From assembly GCA_017519965.1 (NCBI GenBank), contig JAFWRK010000068.1:1-19892 (forward strand): a stretch of 19,892 nt of DNA, read 5' to 3'. Within the stretch, counting starts at the first letter, position 1. Each line of letters opens with the position of its first letter. Position numbers and translations under genes: made by a program. Under the pieces are notes generated by a model. It had not been told where the DNA came from. It did not search any database and saw only the letters and a list, made by a program, of their open reading frames with translations. This stretch comes from Bacilli bacterium (GTDB lineage Bacteria > Bacillota_I > Bacilli_A > RF39 > UBA660). Of the stretch, positions 5,207-19,892 are shown one piece after another.

Positions 5207-5241
5207 TTTATTTAGAAGATTAATAAAAATGGAGGTTGTTT

Positions 5242-7251
5242 ATGACAGAAGAAAAAAAGCCTAAAGGATGGCTTATTTATACTATATTTTTTATTATTTC
5301 TATTATTACAAGTGTATTCGCAATATATGAAATACTATTACTTAGTTCTATTGAAAACCTAATAAGATATTTAGTAATAGCTATTTTGATTATTATAGAT
5401 TTGATTTTATTATTTAGAATTAAAAGATTTTTTAAACCGAAAAAAGTTAAGAGACATATATTACTAATGTTATTTATGCTACTCTATTCAATTATTTGTT
5501 TAGTTATTGGTTTACTAATAAGTTTTGTTTATAAAGAAGTTAGTAGTATTAATAAAGTATATGTTACTTATACTTCTAATTTAATTACTATGGCATCAAG
5601 TAATATATCTGATGTTTCTGATGTTAGTGATTTAAAAATTGGAATCTTATCTGATAAAAAATCTGTTGAAGGTTATAAGATTCCAATGGATATTATAAAA
5701 GAGAATAAGTTAGAAGATGAGAATGAATTAGTTGACTATGGAGATTATACTTCAATGATTGTTGACTTGTATTCTAACGATATTGATGCTTGTTTTGTAT
5801 CAGATAGTTATGTAAATATATTTTCATCAATTTCTGGATATGAAAATATTGAAAATGAAACTAAAATTGTTATTAGTAAGAGTGAAAAACTAAAGAAAGC
5901 TGATACTTCTTCTACTGAGACTGCTTCTGTTGGAAAAGAAATAACTGAACCTTTTACAATTCTTTTAATGGGAATTGATTCTACTGATGAAGTTTTAGAA
6001 AAGAATGCTGTTGCTAATGGTGATACGTTAATTCTTATTACTTTTAATCCTAAGACTTTAAATGCTACTATGTTATCTATTCCTAGAGATTCATATGTAC
6101 CTATAGCTTGTTGGGCTAATAAAGATGAAAATAAGATTACTCATGCTGCTGCTTATGGAAATGATTGTATGATTAAAACAATTGAAAATTATTTTGATAC
6201 TTCAATTGATTATTATGCAAAGATTAACTTTAAGGGATTAGTTAAATTAGTTGATTCCTTAGGTGGAGTTGAAGTTGATGTAGAACAAGAATTATGTACT
6301 GATGATTCTAATAGAACTGGTGTTGTATGTATACATCCTGGACTTCAAACATTAAATGGTGAGCAAGCTTTAGTTTATGCAAGAAATAGAAAGCAACTTG
6401 CTAATGGTGACTTTGGAAGAAATTATCACCAACAAGTTATTGTTATGGCTTTAATGAATAAAGTTAAAGAGATTAAAGATGCTACTCAATTTATGGATTT
6501 ATTAAATACTGTATCTAATAGTGTTGATACTAACTTCACTACTAAACAGATATTATCTTTCTATAATGTAGCTAAAGATATCATTAAGAAAAGTATGAGT
6601 TCTGAAGAAGCAGATATTGTTAATATTGAAAGATTATATCTTGCTGGTAATAGTCAAATGATATATGATAATCGAGCTAGAATGGTTCTTTATGAATATG
6701 TACCTAATCAAAATAGTAGAAAAGATATTATTGAAGCTATGAAAGTTAATCTTGGATTATTAGATCATACTGATATTAAAGAATTTACTTTCTCAATTAA
6801 TAAAACTTATGAAAAAGAAGTAATTGGATATGGTCCTTATAAGTCTACTGGTACATTCTCACTTATTCCTGATTTTACTGGTGATAGTAAGGAAGCTGCT
6901 AGTGCTACTTGTTCTAGAATAGGTCTAAAATGTACTTTTGTTGGTACTTCTGGATATGTAGTTAGTCAAAGTCATCCAGCTAGTTCTAGAGTTGATAAAG
7001 CAAAGAATTTTACATTGACTTTATCACAAAATAAAAAAGACACTGATGATGAAAAAACTGATAAGAAGGATAAAGACAAAAAAGAATCTAAAGATACTAA
7101 AGAATTAGATGATGATGAAAAAGAAGATACTATTGATAATAAAGAAAACGGTAATAGTAATAATACTAATTCTAATAGCAATACAGAAAATACTGATAAT
7201 AAAAATTCAGAAGTTGATAATGATTCTTCTAATGAGGAACCTGATGAATAA
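5242..7251 (+). CDS. LCP (LytR-CpsA-Psr) family protein with PASTA-like module
   Basis: LCP proteins act on the outer face of the membrane and transfer undecaprenyl-linked wall polymers (teichoic acids, capsule) to peptidoglycan. This 669-residue protein has three N-terminal membrane spans (~10-34, 39-59, 71-96), which place the rest outside. A segment at ~131-211 resembles half a solute-binding domain. The LCP domain spans ~236-420 and shows FTILLMGID, GDT (Asp261), SIPRDSYV (Arg282), YARNR (Arg381, Arg383) and GDFGRNYHQQ (Asp390, Arg393). These match the phosphate-binding residues of the family. A single PASTA-like domain (~540-597) with Cys557 and Cys564 follows. The last ~72 residues are an acidic Asp/Glu/Lys/Asn/Ser tail. 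The start is the ATG with GGAGG six bases upstream; a TTG two codons earlier overlaps that spacer. It is the only plus-strand gene here and lies next to a wall hydrolase and an LtaS-like gene. Confidence 0.92.
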   Translation: MTEEKKPKGWLIYTIFFIISIITSVFAIYEILLLSSIENLIRYLVIAILIIIDLILLFRIKRFFKPKKVKRHILLMLFMLLYSIICLVIGLLISFVYKEVSSINKVYVTYTSNLITMASSNISDVSDVSDLKIGILSDKKSVEGYKIPMDIIKENKLEDENELVDYGDYTSMIVDLYSNDIDACFVSDSYVNIFSSISGYENIENETKIVISKSEKLKKADTSSTETASVGKEITEPFTILLMGIDSTDEVLEKNAVANGDTLILITFNPKTLNATMLSIPRDSYVPIACWANKDENKITHAAAYGNDCMIKTIENYFDTSIDYYAKINFKGLVKLVDSLGGVEVDVEQELCTDDSNRTGVVCIHPGLQTLNGEQALVYARNRKQLANGDFGRNYHQQVIVMALMNKVKEIKDATQFMDLLNTVSNSVDTNFTTKQILSFYNVAKDIIKKSMSSEEADIVNIERLYLAGNSQMIYDNRARMVLYEYVPNQNSRKDIIEAMKVNLGLLDHTDIKEFTFSINKTYEKEVIGYGPYKSTGTFSLIPDFTGDSKEAASATCSRIGLKCTFVGTSGYVVSQSHPASSRVDKAKNFTLTLSQNKKDTDDEKTDKKDKDKKESKDTKELDDDEKEDTIDNKENGNSNNTNSNSNTENTDNKNSEVDNDSSNEEPDE

Positions 7252-10904: not shown

Positions 10905-12944
10905 TTACTTATATTCTTCTTTGTTTGTTATCATCTCTAAAGTAGCTTCATTTATAGCATCATCTAATGTTTTTATTTCATCTGTTATCATACTATATCC
11001 TACTGCTGCTCCAAATTCATGTGGAAGTGACTTCATTTCTTTTGATAATTTCTTAGTATATGTACTTATTTGTCTATCACTATAACCAACTAAGTATATT
11101 AAGAATTCATTTCCATCTGTTCTTATTATTTCACTATTTTCTAATTGTGTATTAACTAATACTCCTGCTGCTTTGATAATTAATTGATCTCCTTCTTCAT
11201 GACCATAATTATCATTTACATATTTAACACTATTTAAATCTACTATTACTATTGCTTGTGGGAATACATTACAATCTTCCCATTCTGGCATTTTAGCATT
11301 TAAATAATTTCTATTCTTTAGAGAAGTTAACATATCAGTATATTTGTGTCTATCAGTTATCTTAACCTTTTTAATTTGCTTTTTCTTCTTAATTATAAAT
11401 ATTATCAATGATAATAATATTAATGGTATAAATATTATTAACAATACTGTTATGTATGCTTGTTCTAATGTTGAATCTTTTAATATTGATGCATTTAAGT
11501 TCTCTAATCCACTATTTCTATAATTGTAATATGAATTAGTGTTAATTATATAGTTAAATAATTTATAGAATGCTTCATTATTATTTTTAACCATAAATTT
11601 ATAATCATTCATCATTGTGTCTTTATAGATTAATTGTAAATCTTTAAATTTAGTTGTTTGATAATAACTATATACCTCAAAATCAACTATTATTAATTTA
11701 TCTTTAGCTTTATCTATTAATTCATCAATATCTTTGTATGTTTTTATTTTAGCTCTAGAGTTATTAGAAAAATAATTATATAATGAATATCCTTCTAACA
11801 TTGCTACTTCTTTGTCTTTTAGACTTTCAAATGAATTAACTATTGTATGATTATCTTTCTTTTCTAAAACTACATAGTCTTCTACAAATGTTGATAATGT
11901 TTCTAAATACTTATCACCATTGTAATTATAATAATCAAAAAATACATCTACTTTTCCAGCATCTATTGCTTTCTTTAATTCTTCTTTAGATTTATATTTT
12001 TTATACTTAAAATTGATATCAGTTAGTCTTGATATTCTATCTATGTATTCTCCAGCTATACCTGATACTTTACCATTTACATTTACTTCATATGGAGGAT
12101 TTTCTACATATCCGTAAACATAGTTTTTAGATACTAAAGCACTTTTTTCTTTAGCACTTATTTCATTTTTATCTACATAATAATCTAAGTATTGTTCATT
12201 ATATTCTTTAATATAATTTGTTTGTTTCCATTTATTATAGTACTTAACAACTATCTTGTTTAACTCTTTATCGTTATCACTTAAAGTTAATACTACTTGT
12301 TTTTTCATTTCAGTTAAATAGTAATTAATTGAATATGAATCATTTTTAATTATGTAGTCTAAGTACATTATACTTGGAACTACAATCATATTAACTTCTC
12401 CATTATCTAGTGCTTTATATAGTGTTGTTACATCATCATAATTTTTATATGATAGATAACTTCCACTCTTTAAGTAATAACTTACTTCTTCTGCATCTTT
12501 TGTAAATACTCCTAATGTTATATTCTTAATATCTTGAATATGATTTATTCTTTGATATGTTTTACCTACTATTATGTAGTTATCATTAAATATTAATAAA
12601 TCATTCTTATTAAGAGCTGTCTCATTATCTAGTATTCTTATTCTATAACTGTTTCCAGTTGGATCCGAATTTTTTAAATATGATATTTTATTAAATTCAA
12701 TTCCTATGTTTTCTTCAAAATCTTCTAAAAAGTTAAAGATTACTCCACTACCATTTTCTCCATATAGTGGGTAATCATTTATAACTTCAAAGTCAAATTT
12801 CTTTTCTTTATTCTCTACTACCCATTTCTTTTCTTTTACTGTTAATGTTGTAGTTGAGTCTTCTTTATTGTAATATCTATAAACAAATACAAAAGTTACA
12901 GCTGCGATAATTATTGGTATTATTATTGATAACTTTTTTTTCAT
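10905..12944 (-). CDS. Membrane sensor with solute-binding-like domains and degenerate GGDEF domain
   Basis: This 679-residue protein has a first membrane anchor (~6-22), an extracytoplasmic region (~35-490), a second span (~497-518), a short basic linker and a cytoplasmic GGDEF-family domain (~532-679). The outer region reads as two solute-binding (SBP_bac_3-like) domains: about 50-255, and 270-475 beginning YGYVENPPYEVNVNGKVSG. The GGDEF domain keeps VDLNSVKYVNDNYGHEEGD, but the signature itself is DGNEF (610-614, in RTDGNEF), with Asn in place of the metal-binding Asp/Glu. No RxxD inhibitory site precedes it. It may therefore bind nucleotide without making c-di-GMP, or be catalytically altered. 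The ribosome-binding site AGGTG overlaps the TAG of the upstream gene, eight bases away, so translation is probably coupled. The ligand is unknown. Confidence 0.82.
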   Translation of the reverse strand: MKKKLSIIIPIIIAAVTFVFVYRYYNKEDSTTTLTVKEKKWVVENKEKKFDFEVINDYPLYGENGSGVIFNFLEDFEENIGIEFNKISYLKNSDPTGNSYRIRILDNETALNKNDLLIFNDNYIIVGKTYQRINHIQDIKNITLGVFTKDAEEVSYYLKSGSYLSYKNYDDVTTLYKALDNGEVNMIVVPSIMYLDYIIKNDSYSINYYLTEMKKQVVLTLSDNDKELNKIVVKYYNKWKQTNYIKEYNEQYLDYYVDKNEISAKEKSALVSKNYVYGYVENPPYEVNVNGKVSGIAGEYIDRISRLTDINFKYKKYKSKEELKKAIDAGKVDVFFDYYNYNGDKYLETLSTFVEDYVVLEKKDNHTIVNSFESLKDKEVAMLEGYSLYNYFSNNSRAKIKTYKDIDELIDKAKDKLIIVDFEVYSYYQTTKFKDLQLIYKDTMMNDYKFMVKNNNEAFYKLFNYIINTNSYYNYRNSGLENLNASILKDSTLEQAYITVLLIIFIPLILLSLIIFIIKKKKQIKKVKITDRHKYTDMLTSLKNRNYLNAKMPEWEDCNVFPQAIVIVDLNSVKYVNDNYGHEEGDQLIIKAAGVLVNTQLENSEIIRTDGNEFLIYLVGYSDRQISTYTKKLSKEMKSLPHEFGAAVGYSMITDEIKTLDDAINEATLEMITNKEEYK

Positions 12945-16359: not shown

Positions 16360-16668
16360 TTAAGCACCTTCACTTTCACCAATTACTACTGGTACTGAAA
16401 TATAATTACCAGAGTGTCTAGGAGCATTTTCTACTACTGCTTTAGGGTCTAACATACTACCTTCACTATCTTCTCTTAAAGATGTATTAGACTCCCATGG
16501 AGCTATTAAAATATCATTGTCATAACCTTCTACTTCATTTATCTTTTCTACATCATTTAGTAACTTTCTTAATTGAACACGATACTTTTCTATTTCTTCT
16601 TCTGTTAATTTAATTCTAGCTAGATTTGCTACGTGTAATATTTCTTCTCGACTTAGTTTTTCTTCCAT
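16360..16668 (-). CDS. gatC: Aspartyl/glutamyl-tRNA amidotransferase subunit C
   Basis: GatC is the small structural subunit that wraps around GatA and stabilises the GatCAB complex. At 102 residues it has the usual length. The N-terminal helix pair LSREEILHVANLARIKLTEEE is the family hallmark. The middle of the protein carries a Pro/Asp-rich linker, and LREDSEG and the VENAPRHSGNYISVP block near the C-terminus match the part that runs along GatA. It is the first gene of the operon, with a strong AGGAGGT ribosome-binding site seven bases before ATG and its own promoter at 16695-16724. Confidence 0.96.
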   Translation of the reverse strand: MEEKLSREEILHVANLARIKLTEEEIEKYRVQLRKLLNDVEKINEVEGYDNDILIAPWESNTSLREDSEGSMLDPKAVVENAPRHSGNYISVPVVIGESEGA

Positions 16669-16694
16669 AAGGTATACCTCCTCAAAACAGTTTT

Positions 16695-16724
16695 ATTATA
16701 TCACTTAAACATTGTCTTTGTAAA
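16695..16724 (-). promoter_or_regulatory. Promoter of the gatCAB operon
   Basis: On the minus strand TTTACA (16719-16724), an 18-bp spacer and TATAAT (16695-16700) lie 26 bases before the gatC start. No T-box or other leader structure fits in the short leader. Confidence 0.75.
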
Positions 16725-16730
16725 TTAAAC

Positions 16731-16761
16731 AAAAAGAAATAGAGAAATATATTTCTCTATT
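16731..16761 (-). terminator. Intrinsic terminator overlapping the stop of the repeat protein
   Basis: A 24-base perfect palindrome (16738-16761) folds into a stem with an ATATAT loop. On the minus transcript it is followed by a U-rich run (UUUCUUUUU). The TAG stop of the repeat protein (16757-16759) lies inside the 5' arm. It separates that gene from the gat promoter. Confidence 0.85.
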
Positions 16762-18487
16762 TTTTTATTAATACTTTAATATCTTTTTCTTTTATTCTTT
16801 CATGAAAGAAGTTATTTCCTTTTTTAATTAATTTAGGTGCATAGAAGTTTTCCATTTTAGTATTTTGATACATAAAATCATCTCCTACTTCTTCTAAATT
16901 CTCTACTATTAATTCAGTAGCATAAAAATTATTCCATAAGAAGTTTTTACCAGTTCTTTTTAATTTCTTTAGATTTGCACTATCTAGTCTAAAACTTTTA
17001 TATAAGAAGTTATCTCCTACTTCTTCTACATCTGGTAGATATATATTACTTAAGAATAATTTTTCTCTCATAAAATTATTACCTATTCTTTTTACTTTGG
17101 GTAAGTTAACATCATTACAATGATACATTTCAGGTATGAAGTTATCTCCTATTACTAGAAGATTATTAAAACTATAATGTCTTATACTACTATTATTATA
17201 AAAGAAATTGTTACCTATACTTTTTACTTTGTTGTAGAATATGCTTTCCATATTCTTATTTGAATACATAAAATTATCTTTAATTCTTAATACATTAGGT
17301 AAATCTAATTCACTTAGTTCTTCATCGTTTTTAGCAAAGTTATTACCTATACTTTTTACATTCTTAATTAATACTTTTTCTAAACTATTAGCATTCTCCA
17401 AAAAATTATTTTGAATAACTAATGCATTATTTAATTCAATTTCTTTTATGTTTCTACTACCTTTTAAGAAGTTATCTCTAACTATTTTTATGTTATTATC
17501 TTTATAACTAATTAATTGATTATATTTATCTATTGTTAATTCTATATTTTCATTAATAATTACTTTTTTAGTATTTTTATCTATTTTTATTTCTTTAATA
17601 GATTCTATATTATTTAGATTATCTACAAATCCATCATAGCTTTTATCATATGTTTTAATTGTTTTATTTTCTTTATCTAATATATATTTATCAAATACTA
17701 TATACTTTTCTTTTGGATATTTTTTTACTTCAAAGTTATCAATTATTATATTATCAGTACAATAGTAAATATTATTTTCTTCATAGTTATATTTATAATA
17801 CTTACTATCGTTTGCTTTTACATAATTGTCTAATTCAAAGTTTGTTTCGCCTTCATCTAAAATATTTAAAAAATACTCTTTTTCAAAGCTTTTAGTTAAT
17901 CCTTTAACAATATTATCTAAGTGATTGTAATATGTTGAGTCTGGTTTTTTTACAGTATGATTATATCTATTCTTAATAGATAGTGTATTATGCATACCTT
18001 TAGTAAATTGTATACTTATAGCTGATCTACCATAAGAGTCTTCTCTTTTTGGTTCTTTATACATTTCTCTTTTGATATTATCTATATCTTCTTTTATAGC
18101 AAAGAATACATAGTGTTTATTTAATCTTCCGCCATTAAAAGTACATAATGATTCCTCATGTCTATAATACTTTTTAAATTTCTGAATATCTTCTTCACTT
18201 TTACATTCGTATAAATTATATCCTACAGACTTTAATAATTCTTTAGGTGTTTTATCAGTATCTTCTACTTCTTTTTTCTCTTTTAATTGTCCATAGATAT
18301 AATCTTTAAATAAGAACTCACTATCAGAGTTTACAATATCTTCATATAAGTAAAATGAATGATTAAATGTATTATCCAATATCTTAGGTAATAATCCATC
18401 TTTCTCTAAAATGGATGGGAATAATTCTCTACATAGATGAGACATTTTTTCTCCATAATTCTTCTTTATTCTATCTAAATCTTCCAT
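16757..18487 (-). CDS. Leucine-rich-like repeat protein with uncharacterised N-terminal domain
   Basis: This 576-residue protein has no signal peptide or membrane span and is probably cytoplasmic. The N-terminal ~210 residues form a compact, well-ordered domain with blocks HEESLCTFNGGRLN, HYVFFAIKEDIDNIKRE, SIQFTKG and LSIKNRYNHTV. I do not recognise its activity. Residues ~215-335 are a lysine/tyrosine-rich spacer with beta-strand character. From residue 336 come ten consecutive repeats of exactly 22 residues, plus a partial eleventh to the end, with consensus IGNNF......L..LxLPxVxx. These look like LRR_5/BspA-type solenoid turns. The start is the ATG at 18487 with AGGGG five bases upstream; a GTG two codons earlier overlaps this site. 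It follows a terminator with almost no room for a promoter, so transcription may come from readthrough or from inside the upstream gene. A binding or scaffold role is likely for the repeats. Confidence 0.82.
   Translation of the reverse strand: MEDLDRIKKNYGEKMSHLCRELFPSILEKDGLLPKILDNTFNHSFYLYEDIVNSDSEFLFKDYIYGQLKEKKEVEDTDKTPKELLKSVGYNLYECKSEEDIQKFKKYYRHEESLCTFNGGRLNKHYVFFAIKEDIDNIKREMYKEPKREDSYGRSAISIQFTKGMHNTLSIKNRYNHTVKKPDSTYYNHLDNIVKGLTKSFEKEYFLNILDEGETNFELDNYVKANDSKYYKYNYEENNIYYCTDNIIIDNFEVKKYPKEKYIVFDKYILDKENKTIKTYDKSYDGFVDNLNNIESIKEIKIDKNTKKVIINENIELTIDKYNQLISYKDNNIKIVRDNFLKGSRNIKEIELNNALVIQNNFLENANSLEKVLIKNVKSIGNNFAKNDEELSELDLPNVLRIKDNFMYSNKNMESIFYNKVKSIGNNFFYNNSSIRHYSFNNLLVIGDNFIPEMYHCNDVNLPKVKRIGNNFMREKLFLSNIYLPDVEEVGDNFLYKSFRLDSANLKKLKRTGKNFLWNNFYATELIVENLEEVGDDFMYQNTKMENFYAPKLIKKGNNFFHERIKEKDIKVLIKK
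16823..17482 (-). repeat. Ten 66-bp coding repeats (22-residue solenoid turns)
   Basis: Ten back-to-back units of exactly 66 bp each encode the turns of the repeat protein, without a single insertion or deletion. The best-conserved part encodes (I/V)GNNF. The DNA of the units has diverged strongly, so the array is old and held by protein structure. Confidence 0.85.
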
Positions 18488-18497
18488 AAACACCCCT

Positions 18498-18530
18498 AAA
18501 ATAAAAAAGACTAAGAATCATTAGTCTTCT
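18498..18530 (-). terminator. Intrinsic terminator containing a stop codon in its stem
   Basis: An 8-bp stem (18507-18514 with 18521-18528) has a 6-nt loop and is followed on the minus transcript by UUUU-A-UUUU. The TAA stop of the upstream membrane protein (18521-18523) is the loop-side end of the 5' arm. Confidence 0.88.
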
Positions 18531-19273
18531 ATTTCAACTATTTCTGCATTAGCAGCTGATTCTGCAAAACAATTAATTAAGTATAATCTATTACTTTTTT
18601 TACCATCTTTAACTTTAAATGTTTTTACTGTTCCTATTACGTTAGCAGTGTCTCCTTCACTAAATACATTAATATAAGAATTCTTATCTGCCATAGAACA
18701 ATAAATAGTTAATGTATATTTAGAATCTTCATCTAAATATTCTAATATTAATTTATTATTTACTGAATCTACTTTTTTAACAGTACTACTAAATCTTATA
18801 AATTCTTTATAATACTTTTTATTTGTTTTTTCATAATTATTCTCAAATTCAATTGCTAAATCTATATCAGTTACATCTAATGGTTCTGAATCATATTTTA
18901 ATTTATAATTTCCTATTTCGTAATCTCTTCTACCTTGTTCTTGATTATATTTAATTACTTTATATCCTAAACCTAAATACTCTTTTGTTCCACCATCTTT
19001 ATAAGTCTTTGTATTAATAGCAAAGAATGGTCCAACATTATATTTGGATACAGCAATAACGTCTACTGTAATCATTATTAATAAAAGAACTATGATTATA
19101 AAAAATATATTTATAATTCTTTTATATAGTTTATATTTTTTATTCTTTTTATTTTTATATTCTTCTAATTCTTCTATAGAATGTGATTCAATTATTTCAG
19201 GTTCATCATATGAATATTCATCATATTCTTCTAGTTCTTCAAAGTCTTTTTTCTTTTTAAATAACTTTTTCAT
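18521..19273 (-). CDS. Membrane-anchored protein with acidic cytoplasmic tail and possible OB-fold
   Basis: This 250-residue protein starts with a basic cluster (MKKLFKKKK). An acidic Glu/Asp/Tyr-rich cytoplasmic segment (~10-40), a second lysine patch, one membrane span (~53-76) and an extracytoplasmic domain follow. Just outside the membrane is a striking conserved-looking block, VGPFFAINTKTYKDGGTKEY followed by LGLGYKVIKYNQEQGRRD. Residues ~157-236 alternate beta strands (SSTVKKVDSVNNKLILEYL, YTLTIYCS, DTANVIGTVKTFKV) in a way that suggests an OB-fold. No catalytic motif is visible. The ribosome-binding site is GAGGTG five bases before ATG. It has its own extended -10 promoter and terminator, so it can be a single-gene unit. 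The function is unknown; I would describe it as a conserved envelope protein of this lineage. Confidence 0.8.
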   Translation of the reverse strand: MKKLFKKKKDFEELEEYDEYSYDEPEIIESHSIEELEEYKNKKNKKYKLYKRIINIFFIIIVLLLIMITVDVIAVSKYNVGPFFAINTKTYKDGGTKEYLGLGYKVIKYNQEQGRRDYEIGNYKLKYDSEPLDVTDIDLAIEFENNYEKTNKKYYKEFIRFSSTVKKVDSVNNKLILEYLDEDSKYTLTIYCSMADKNSYINVFSEGDTANVIGTVKTFKVKDGKKSNRLYLINCFAESAANAEIVEIED

Positions 19274-19306
19274 ACCAACACCTCTTTTTCACTCAATTGT
19301 TAGCAT

Positions 19307-19335
19307 ATTATACCACATTTTTAATGATTTGTAAA
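19307..19335 (-). promoter_or_regulatory. Extended -10 promoter upstream of the OB-fold-like membrane protein
   Basis: On the minus strand TTTACA (19330-19335), a 17-bp spacer and TATAAT (19307-19312) preceded by TGG form an extended -10 promoter. The transcript would start about 25-30 bases before the ATG at 19273. Confidence 0.78.
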
Positions 19336-19366
19336 ATTGATAATAGTATATTTATTTATTTTACAG

Positions 19367-19489
19367 TTATTTTGTCTTCTTTTTATGGTTATAAATAGCA
19401 AGTGTCCCTTTTTTCTCTACATATTTGATTTTTAATCCTCGTTCTTCAAATATCTTTTCAATTATTTTTCTTGTGTCTTTCTTTTTCAT
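19367..19489 (-). CDS. 40-residue basic small protein downstream of a SAM riboswitch
   Basis: A short minus-strand ORF opens with ATG at 19489, preceded by an AAAGGA ribosome-binding site seven to eight bases away, and ends with TAA. The product, beginning MKKKDTRKIIEKIFEERG, is 40 residues long and highly basic. It has a predicted helix (~4-18), a strand-rich middle (LKIKYVEKKGTLAIYN) and a lysine tail. There is no membrane segment or signal peptide. It is the first and only ORF between the riboswitch terminator (19518-19553) and the next promoter (19307-19335), so it is the direct target of the switch. No terminator follows, so readthrough into the next gene is possible. I do not recognise it. 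It could be a real small protein, a leader peptide, or a remnant of a longer SAM-regulated gene. Confidence 0.6.
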   Translation of the reverse strand: MKKKDTRKIIEKIFEERGLKIKYVEKKGTLAIYNHKKKTK

Positions 19490-19517
19490 ATTCTTTTCCT
19501 TTCCAGATCACATTATC

Positions 19518-19553
19518 AAGAAAAGAAAAAGACCTTATACAAGTGTATAAGGT
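19518..19553 (-). terminator. Riboswitch expression-platform terminator
   Basis: A 9-bp GC-capped stem (ACCTTATAC with GTATAAGGT, 19532-19553) has a 4-nt loop and is followed on the minus transcript by a U-rich run (CUUUUUCUUUUCUU). A competing 7-bp hairpin pairs AUACAAG (19555-19561) with CUUGUAU (19537-19543) and would consume the terminator's 3' arm. This is the arrangement of a terminator/antiterminator switch. Confidence 0.88.
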
Positions 19554-19561
19554 TCTTGTAT

Positions 19562-19655
19562 TTATCACTCAAAGTTATACTTTGTTGGTATTACCACCTA
19601 ACTTAATAGGTTGGTGCAAGGTCACTGAGCCAATTCTCTATCTTGCTCTTGATAA
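19562..19655 (-). ncRNA. SAM-I (S-box) riboswitch aptamer
   Basis: On the minus transcript the aptamer opens with UUAUCAAGAG, the S-box signature. Its 5' P1 strand pairs with UGAUAA at 19562-19567. P2a is CAAG/CUUG (19642-19645 with 19617-19620). P2b is GAG-AAUUGG-CUC (19627-19638), matching the GGG-ACUGG-CCC of known S-boxes, with the AGUGA kink-turn side after it. P3 is ACC-A-ACCUA / UAGGU-GGU (19607-19615 with 19593-19600). GGUGGUAAUACC matches the conserved GGUGCUAAUUCC. P4 is CAAAGU/ACUUUG (19579-19584 with 19570-19575). The P2b loop UUGG can pair with CCAA (19585-19588) as the family pseudoknot. A terminator follows, so binding S-adenosylmethionine should switch expression off. The downstream gene is the 40-residue ORF. 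Confidence 0.85.
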
Positions 19656-19671
19656 TGTAAATTGTATTTCT

Positions 19672-19677
19672 ATTATA
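19672..19677 (-). promoter_or_regulatory. Probable -10 box of the riboswitch transcript
   Basis: TATAAT on the minus strand lies 17 bases before the start of aptamer stem P1, a suitable position for the transcript start. No good -35 is found at 16-18 bp (GTAAAA or TGGTAA only), so the assignment is tentative. Confidence 0.45.
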
Positions 19678-19892
19678 TTATTCTTTCTTAGTATTTTACC
19701 ACTGCCTCAAGAAATTATTTTGCATATTTTCTGTAATAATCTTCCTAATTAGTGTTGTATTCTTCATATATTGTGCTATATTTTCCACTTTTTAACCAAT
19801 ATAGTTATCTAAAAAGGTATCTAATTTTTCTGTTCGTAACATCTTAATATTTCGAACTCTTCTGTTGATTTACTATACCCAGTAATAATCTA
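19678..19892 (-). pseudogene. Possible decayed coding remnant at the right edge
   Basis: No intact gene is present in this stretch. On the minus strand, short protein-like pieces occur in shifting frames: ITGYSKSTEEFEIL near the edge, MLRTEKLDTFLDNYI starting at about 19842, and LKSGKYSTIYEEYN next to it, separated by frameshifts and stops. They could be the broken 3' end of a gene lying beyond the window, or chance open stretches in AT-rich DNA. Confidence 0.25.

Follow-up and report, generated by a model that had tools for sequence, protein, structure and literature searches.

SAM-I riboswitches and the present locus

S-boxes are textbook regulators of methionine and SAM; their usual targets are methionine, cysteine or SAM genes, which are repressed when SAM is bound, and the GA at the P2 kink-turn, frequent though not universal, is important for the aptamer. 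A translational SAM-I riboswitch is described for a met operon of the Gram-negative Xanthomonas campestris, in which, according to the accessible part of the report, the SAM-bound aptamer hides the ribosome-binding site and also the start codon, uncharged tRNA-fMet is sensed as well, and transcription is said to be weakly affected (PMC7270179). The locus described here belongs to a stretch of 19,892 nucleotides from a Bacilli bacterium (contig JAFWRK010000068.1), hereafter the window, and the switch and the genes behind it lie on the minus strand. It shares with SAM-I (RF00162) a full aptamer, a terminator and antiterminator arms, and differs in its target, a microprotein of a family defined here (famC) where a methionine, cysteine or SAM gene would be usual, and in a putative second platform that would compete for the 5' strand of P1. 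With the Xanthomonas switch our proposal shares the SAM-I aptamer and a ribosome-binding site hidden in the presence of SAM, whereas a terminator followed by an anti-P1 segment, as seen in the window, does not appear in the accessible part of that report (PMC7270179). In two relatives (G372 and G520) such a leader is followed by an N-formylglutamate-amidohydrolase-like (FGase) domain (PF05013) fused to a small N-terminal domain, and this FGase domain is absent from the window ORF. Titles and abstract openings of the open-access literature, among the matches listed, contained nothing on famC, no SAM riboswitch connected with N-formylglutamate and no two-layer platform. An S-box in front of a microprotein raises the question of what a SAM-short cell needs besides more SAM, and the proposed strand exchange on the 5' side of P1, stacked behind a terminator, would be an expression platform open to direct test.

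Aptamer and first terminator

The SAM-I aptamer was located by cmscan at 19658-19559 (-), covering model positions 1-108 with 62.7 bits (E 1.1e-12) against a gathering score of 44.4 bits for RF00162, and no other Rfam match in the whole window exceeded gathering. The preliminary description had placed a complete S-box aptamer within 19367..19655; the covariance model agrees, with the start moved 3 nt further out, to 19658. A -10 box TATAAT for the riboswitch transcript was read from the sequence and the leader alignment at 19672..19677 (-), and the TG seen by eye directly 5' of this box in six of seven relatives is AA in the window. The kink-turn is also atypical, reading AUA versus NGA in 66 of the 78 leaders covered by the script (of 81 rows), and the window is one of the 10 of 78 in which the kink-turn G is absent, with U instead. 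The GA of the SAM-I kink-turn is therefore lacking, which may weaken SAM binding, leaves the affinity uncertain and makes decay of the switch possible; since the model score is still good, we keep the predicted aptamer as an RF00162 member.

Behind the aptamer, a terminator-like hairpin of nine pairs (19553-19532, -), with pair changes in relatives, runs into a U-rich tail that extends to about 19518. The scan of 16500-19892 gave two terminator-like sites, the same hairpin on both strands, versus 0.1 in shuffles, in agreement with the terminator reported earlier after the aptamer, and the riboswitch observation, that is, a predicted SAM-I switch with an intrinsic terminator, is confirmed. This first terminator was detected in the window, G153 and G009 by the terminator scan of these loci, and its stem is kept in the alignment by four further relatives outside the scanned set; the scan of G438 lacked it and found only the second hairpin described below. 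The antiterminator arms, AUACAAG (19561-19555) and CUUGUAU (19543-19537), follow from alignment columns (19537..19561, -), and in six aligned relatives the 5' arm reads AUACGA.. and the 3' arm matches it, including double-sided changes with respect to the window. The 5' arm adjoins the 5-bp P1 and does not overlap it, so that SAM control of the first terminator is not obvious and it is the second hairpin that connects most clearly with P1.

Relatives of the leader and the genes that follow

Leaders 84-90% identical over 156-172 nt were found in 4 of 293 genomes (G153, G009, G037, and G011), with weaker matches in 39 more genomes, many of them to other S-boxes. A second, overlapping draw yielded 4 of 385 genomes at E 1e-20 (G153, G372, G520, and G438), where G372 and G520 matched at 86-90% and G438 over a shorter stretch (106 nt at 88%). 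In total, seven distinct genomes besides the window carry the leader, each having an ATG at the corresponding position; the homology begins at the -10 box, extends through the ribosome-binding site and fades at the start codon. Plasmids and phages gave no match to the leader region in a distant blastn search.

Downstream of the leader the relatives differ. G009 (leader identity 89%) has a 52-aa stand-alone famC protein (P0002), and G372 (90%) a protein of 278 aa that resembles the window ORF (P0001) in its first ~40 residues and has an FGase domain (PF05013, 113 bits) at residues 43-254. The leader of G520 precedes a famA-like N-terminus with a fused FGase domain that the contig end truncates, that of G153 a 68-aa famA-like protein and then famB, that of G037 famB, that of G438 a 4-codon ORF and then a famB-like protein (by eye), and that of G011 a gene masked after its first residues. 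The famA grouping is loose, with 8-25% identity to its first member. For famB, eight matches at E<=0.001 were obtained in the 293 genomes, the three strong ones (G153, after the famA-like gene, G037, and G021) all behind an S-box, and among the weak ones three of five loci were scanned and one (G230) had an S-box. The famB fold was modeled confidently (mean pLDDT 90.6), with no PDB match better than E 4.2. A viral contig (L217) carries a gene for a famB-like protein (30% identity), and a cytosine-methyltransferase-like protein is encoded about 0.8 kb behind it. The FGase as a general S-box target is unsupported: scanning roughly 1.5 kb per side at 10 loci of 16 match rows, SAM matches appeared at two, G372 and G520.

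The 40-aa ORF and the famC family

The ORF (P0001, 19367..19489, -) comprises 40 codons, with AAAGGA (19502-19497) 7 nt before the ATG, in line with the own ribosome-binding site attributed to it previously. Searched alone against 5.8 billion proteins, P0001 matched only itself, among candidates of ~22-70 aa, and this single 40-aa sequence represents 51 contigs. BLASTP gave no match between P0001 and P0002, and Pfam none for P0001, PF05013 included; the NCBIfam model RDAC (NF047998) matched residues 3-30 of P0001 weakly (E 0.0048, 16.9 bits, below the 26-bit cut-off) and left P0002 unmatched. A profile of P0001 and P0002 retrieved three more proteins predicted to stand alone, P0051, P0052, and P0053, with 17 member sequences for P0052 and 7 for P0053; the contigs of P0051 and P0052 do not exceed 1.0 and 1.4 kb, respectively. 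The famC profile also matched a protein in G297 (E 1.5e-7), whose locus looks mobile by eye; the other genome matches were weak (E 0.005 or worse), and none was confirmed in viral contigs.

Several comparisons place P0001 in famC, which we define by similarity over a helix-hairpin core. P0001 scored 81 against the N-terminus of G372 versus 30.9 +/- 5.5 for shuffles (0 of 5000 shuffles), outscored each of 20,000 shuffled versions of itself against a famC profile that excluded it, and gave pairwise p-values of 0.0012 or less with P0002, P0051, P0052, and P0053; pairwise values against the G438 and G297 candidates were not significant. A famC-like 44-aa ORF in G438 is suggestive only (pairwise p 0.15), and famB as the parent of famC is unsupported (p 0.2 against P0001). 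The dN/dS values, over 33-35 codons, were 0.34/1.08 (window-G372; Fisher p 0.014 on rounded counts), 0.22/0.48 (G009-G372), and 0.46/0.82 (window-G009). The conservation of the frame in relatives, proposed in the preliminary description as a check, hence finds modest evidence in ratios of about 0.3-0.6 from three sequences and few sites, which suggest a famC frame under constraint. These comparisons indicate that P0001, the shortest of the five aligned famC proteins, is not a chance frame and is a predicted member of a small family. The structural model, a helix plus a beta-hairpin (pLDDT 71.7, pTM 0.39), was given low weight because of these values and of an alignment of five rows only. Recurrence behind S-boxes, also suggested earlier as a check, is seen in G009 and G372, with G438 as a weak candidate for perhaps a third case, and fails in G297, where the 3 kb scanned around famC had no Rfam match.

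A putative second platform behind the terminator

Directly behind the terminator tail lies a perfect complement of the P1 5' strand ACAUUAUCAAGA, a new observation that is absent from the earlier reading. This anti-P1 segment, UCUUGAUAAUGU (19521-19510, -), is a perfect 12-nt complement of 19658-19647 (duplex z -5.84), and its UUUUUCUUUUCUUGAU is unchanged in 7 of 7 aligned leaders (G438 was excluded from the alignment), across which the terminator stem and the start-adjacent sequence vary. The alternative partner is the ribosome-binding site, in a hairpin of 19529-19515 with 19508-19494 (z -3.0, p 0.007) that covers AAAGGA. When 19665-19480 was folded with RNAfold, the P1 5' strand was joined to the anti-P1 segment (-49.2 kcal/mol, z -4.37), and when P1 was forced, the freed segment moved onto the ribosome-binding site. 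Forcing P1 cost 4.8 kcal/mol in the window, 5.2 in G009, 2.4 in G153, 2.8 in G037, 4.0 in G011, 5.6 in G372, 1.1 in G520, and 0.0 in G438, i.e., without ligand the state in which P1 is captured is preferred by 0 to 5.6 kcal/mol across the eight leaders, a preference that a bound ligand could offset.

In all eight window-type leaders the two pairings are stronger than in dinucleotide shuffles (p<=0.03), with z from -2.2 to -5.8 for the P1-capture helix and from -2.3 to -5.5 for the hairpin at the ribosome-binding site. In metK leaders of the same clade, assigned to type 'a', the capture helix was significant in 8 of 8 (p<=0.015), and the hairpin better than shuffles in one of seven scored. Base composition by itself lets U-tracts pair with purine-rich ribosome-binding sites, which counts against the hairpin as a means of hiding the site. 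The hairpin analysis contained 13 rows without a usable start, and in the table of 81 leaders L081 and L085 are misplaced and L096 is shifted by 6 nt because the loci were clipped.

Covariation was assessed by comparing own with swapped-partner (cross) pairing energies over 20,000 permutations, in leader types (a, b, a2, and c) assigned by eye after the sequences had been viewed. For the eight window-type ('b') and eight 'a' metK leaders together, the capture pairing had an own mean of -16.8 versus a cross mean of -11.9 kcal/mol, and 0 of 20,000 permutations equaled this, a result that partly reflects the difference between types. The 'a' metK leaders alone gave 5/20,000, type a2 2101/20,000, type c 93/20,000, and all 41 leaders 0/20,000; within the eight 'b' leaders the value was not significant (2331/20,000), the capture helix hardly varying among them. 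In an outgroup (genomes G085-G126) capture reached p<=0.015 in 7 of 34 rows (7 of 32 without L081 and L085), and the feature thus also occurs outside the clade. G438 (L216) keeps the second hairpin, and the first ORF after its ribosome-binding site has four codons. The hairpin there runs into six T and scans as a terminator; it may act on transcription, the locus is no proof of translational control, and G438 as a purely translational leader was dropped. A single strand exchange could control both termination and translation, and we claim neither as dominant.

Genes downstream in the window

The ORF is followed by a gene for a 250-aa membrane-protein-like product (18521..19273, -), preceded by TTTACA-17-TATAAT (19307..19335, -), which matches 11 of 12 consensus positions. 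The membrane protein had been described as independently promoted, and the promoter-like site stands; as a class, however, such matches are not enriched (28 found versus 29.3 expected in shuffles), and the scan gave no terminator-like site between the ORF and this gene, which makes read-through possible. On the same strand follow an LRR protein (Pfam LRR_5) and then gatCAB-like genes (by eye). Orthologs of the membrane protein were found at 59 loci, the two closest being 61% identical, with none in viral contigs. They were abandoned as a route to the switch: the eight loci scanned of the 59, several of them short or clipped, had no Rfam match, SAM included.

Proposed mechanism and alternatives

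We infer two expression platforms stacked behind the SAM-I aptamer, of which the second competes for the 5' strand of P1. Layer one would be the terminator/antiterminator pair, and layer two the anti-P1 segment behind it, with either the P1 5' strand or the ribosome-binding site as partner. At low SAM, P1 would open, its 5' strand would take the anti-P1 segment and the ribosome-binding site would be free (ON); at high SAM, P1 would be held together, the terminator and the second hairpin would act and the ribosome-binding site would be hidden (OFF). Aptamer, terminator, both alternative pairings and ORF homology are based on sequence and folding, and the ON/OFF direction on known S-box logic together with the folding results. 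We likewise infer that the exchange is driven by SAM and that the cell makes the peptide and needs it when SAM is low. Repression of a famC microprotein at high SAM by this two-layer platform, through strand exchange at P1, is the reading we favor, and we hold it to be somewhat more probable than not. famC would then be a small accessory module, seen elsewhere at the N-terminus of an FGase-like protein whose gene has a similar switch; as a guess, N-formyl-methionine might be a substrate from which such proteins free methionine in these bacteria.

The post-terminator helix might instead only seal the 5' end of read-through mRNA against decay, in an otherwise ordinary transcription-terminating S-box. 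In many leaders, judged by eye, the helix reaches toward the predicted 5' end, and metK leaders carry it too, most of them with a non-significant hairpin at the ribosome-binding site, but that hairpin exceeds shuffles in every window-type leader and is kept in G438, and we regard this explanation as rather doubtful. A decaying remnant is a serious rival because of the odd kink-turn of the window aptamer: a famC-FGase gene would have been lost apart from its N-terminal domain, the present ORF, and the switch would be degenerating, consistent with the fusion behind a like leader in G372, the shortness of the ORF among the aligned famC proteins, the U in place of the kink-turn G and the promoter without TG. 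Against it, P0002 and P0051-P0053 are predicted to stand alone too (P0052 and P0053 with their several member sequences), one sequence represents the 51 contigs, the start, stop and ribosome-binding site of the ORF are intact, and dN/dS is about 0.3 versus G372; we consider it unlikely. The preliminary description had offered a small protein under SAM control or a lost larger gene, and both gain support, the former from homologs including the stand-alone protein behind a like leader in G009, and the latter from G372, where the leader drives a P0001-like domain fused to PF05013. It is quite improbable that the switch mainly serves the membrane-protein, LRR and gatCAB-like genes by read-through, with the ORF as a passenger: the missing terminator-like site would allow it, but a promoter-like site stands right before the membrane-protein gene, the scanned ortholog loci, several short or clipped, lack Rfam matches, and the leader precedes different genes or arrangements in relatives.

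Beyond the favored repression of a famC microprotein at high SAM, a wider SAM-depletion regulon can be imagined, in which famA-, famB- and famC-like microproteins would be switched on when SAM collapses, for example through a phage SAM-degrading enzyme, and would act with nearby restriction systems; we consider this a long shot. Restriction/modification genes lie within about 6 kb at 4 of 8 loci with the window-type leader, seven of which (all but G011) were examined. The neighbors are GmrSD and an SRA/NOV_C protein (G520), Mrr (G438), an Mrr-like protein (G037), and HsdM (G153), and none were apparent among the ORFs of the window, G009 and G372, inspected by eye and in part searched in Pfam.

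Additional observations

Other S-boxes precede further genes. At L099 (G058) and L121 (G022) a DNA-cytosine-methyltransferase-like protein follows by eye, as the first gene in G058 and after an 83-aa ORF in G022. At L068, L101, L108, and L113 the S-box is followed by a 66-104-aa protein and then by an unusually short (259-260 aa) MetK-like protein, in which, for L068, Pfam finds only S-AdoMet_synt_N. L117, L123, and L122 (G092, G120) have S-boxes before MoxR-type AAA-ATPase-like proteins (by eye), and G092 carries five S-boxes. Elsewhere in the window, 5236-7251 encodes a LytR-CpsA-Psr protein with a PASTA domain and a phosphonate-binding-like segment just below the cut-off, and 10905-12944 a GGDEF protein with an extracellular solute-binding-like sensor segment, also just below the cut-off.
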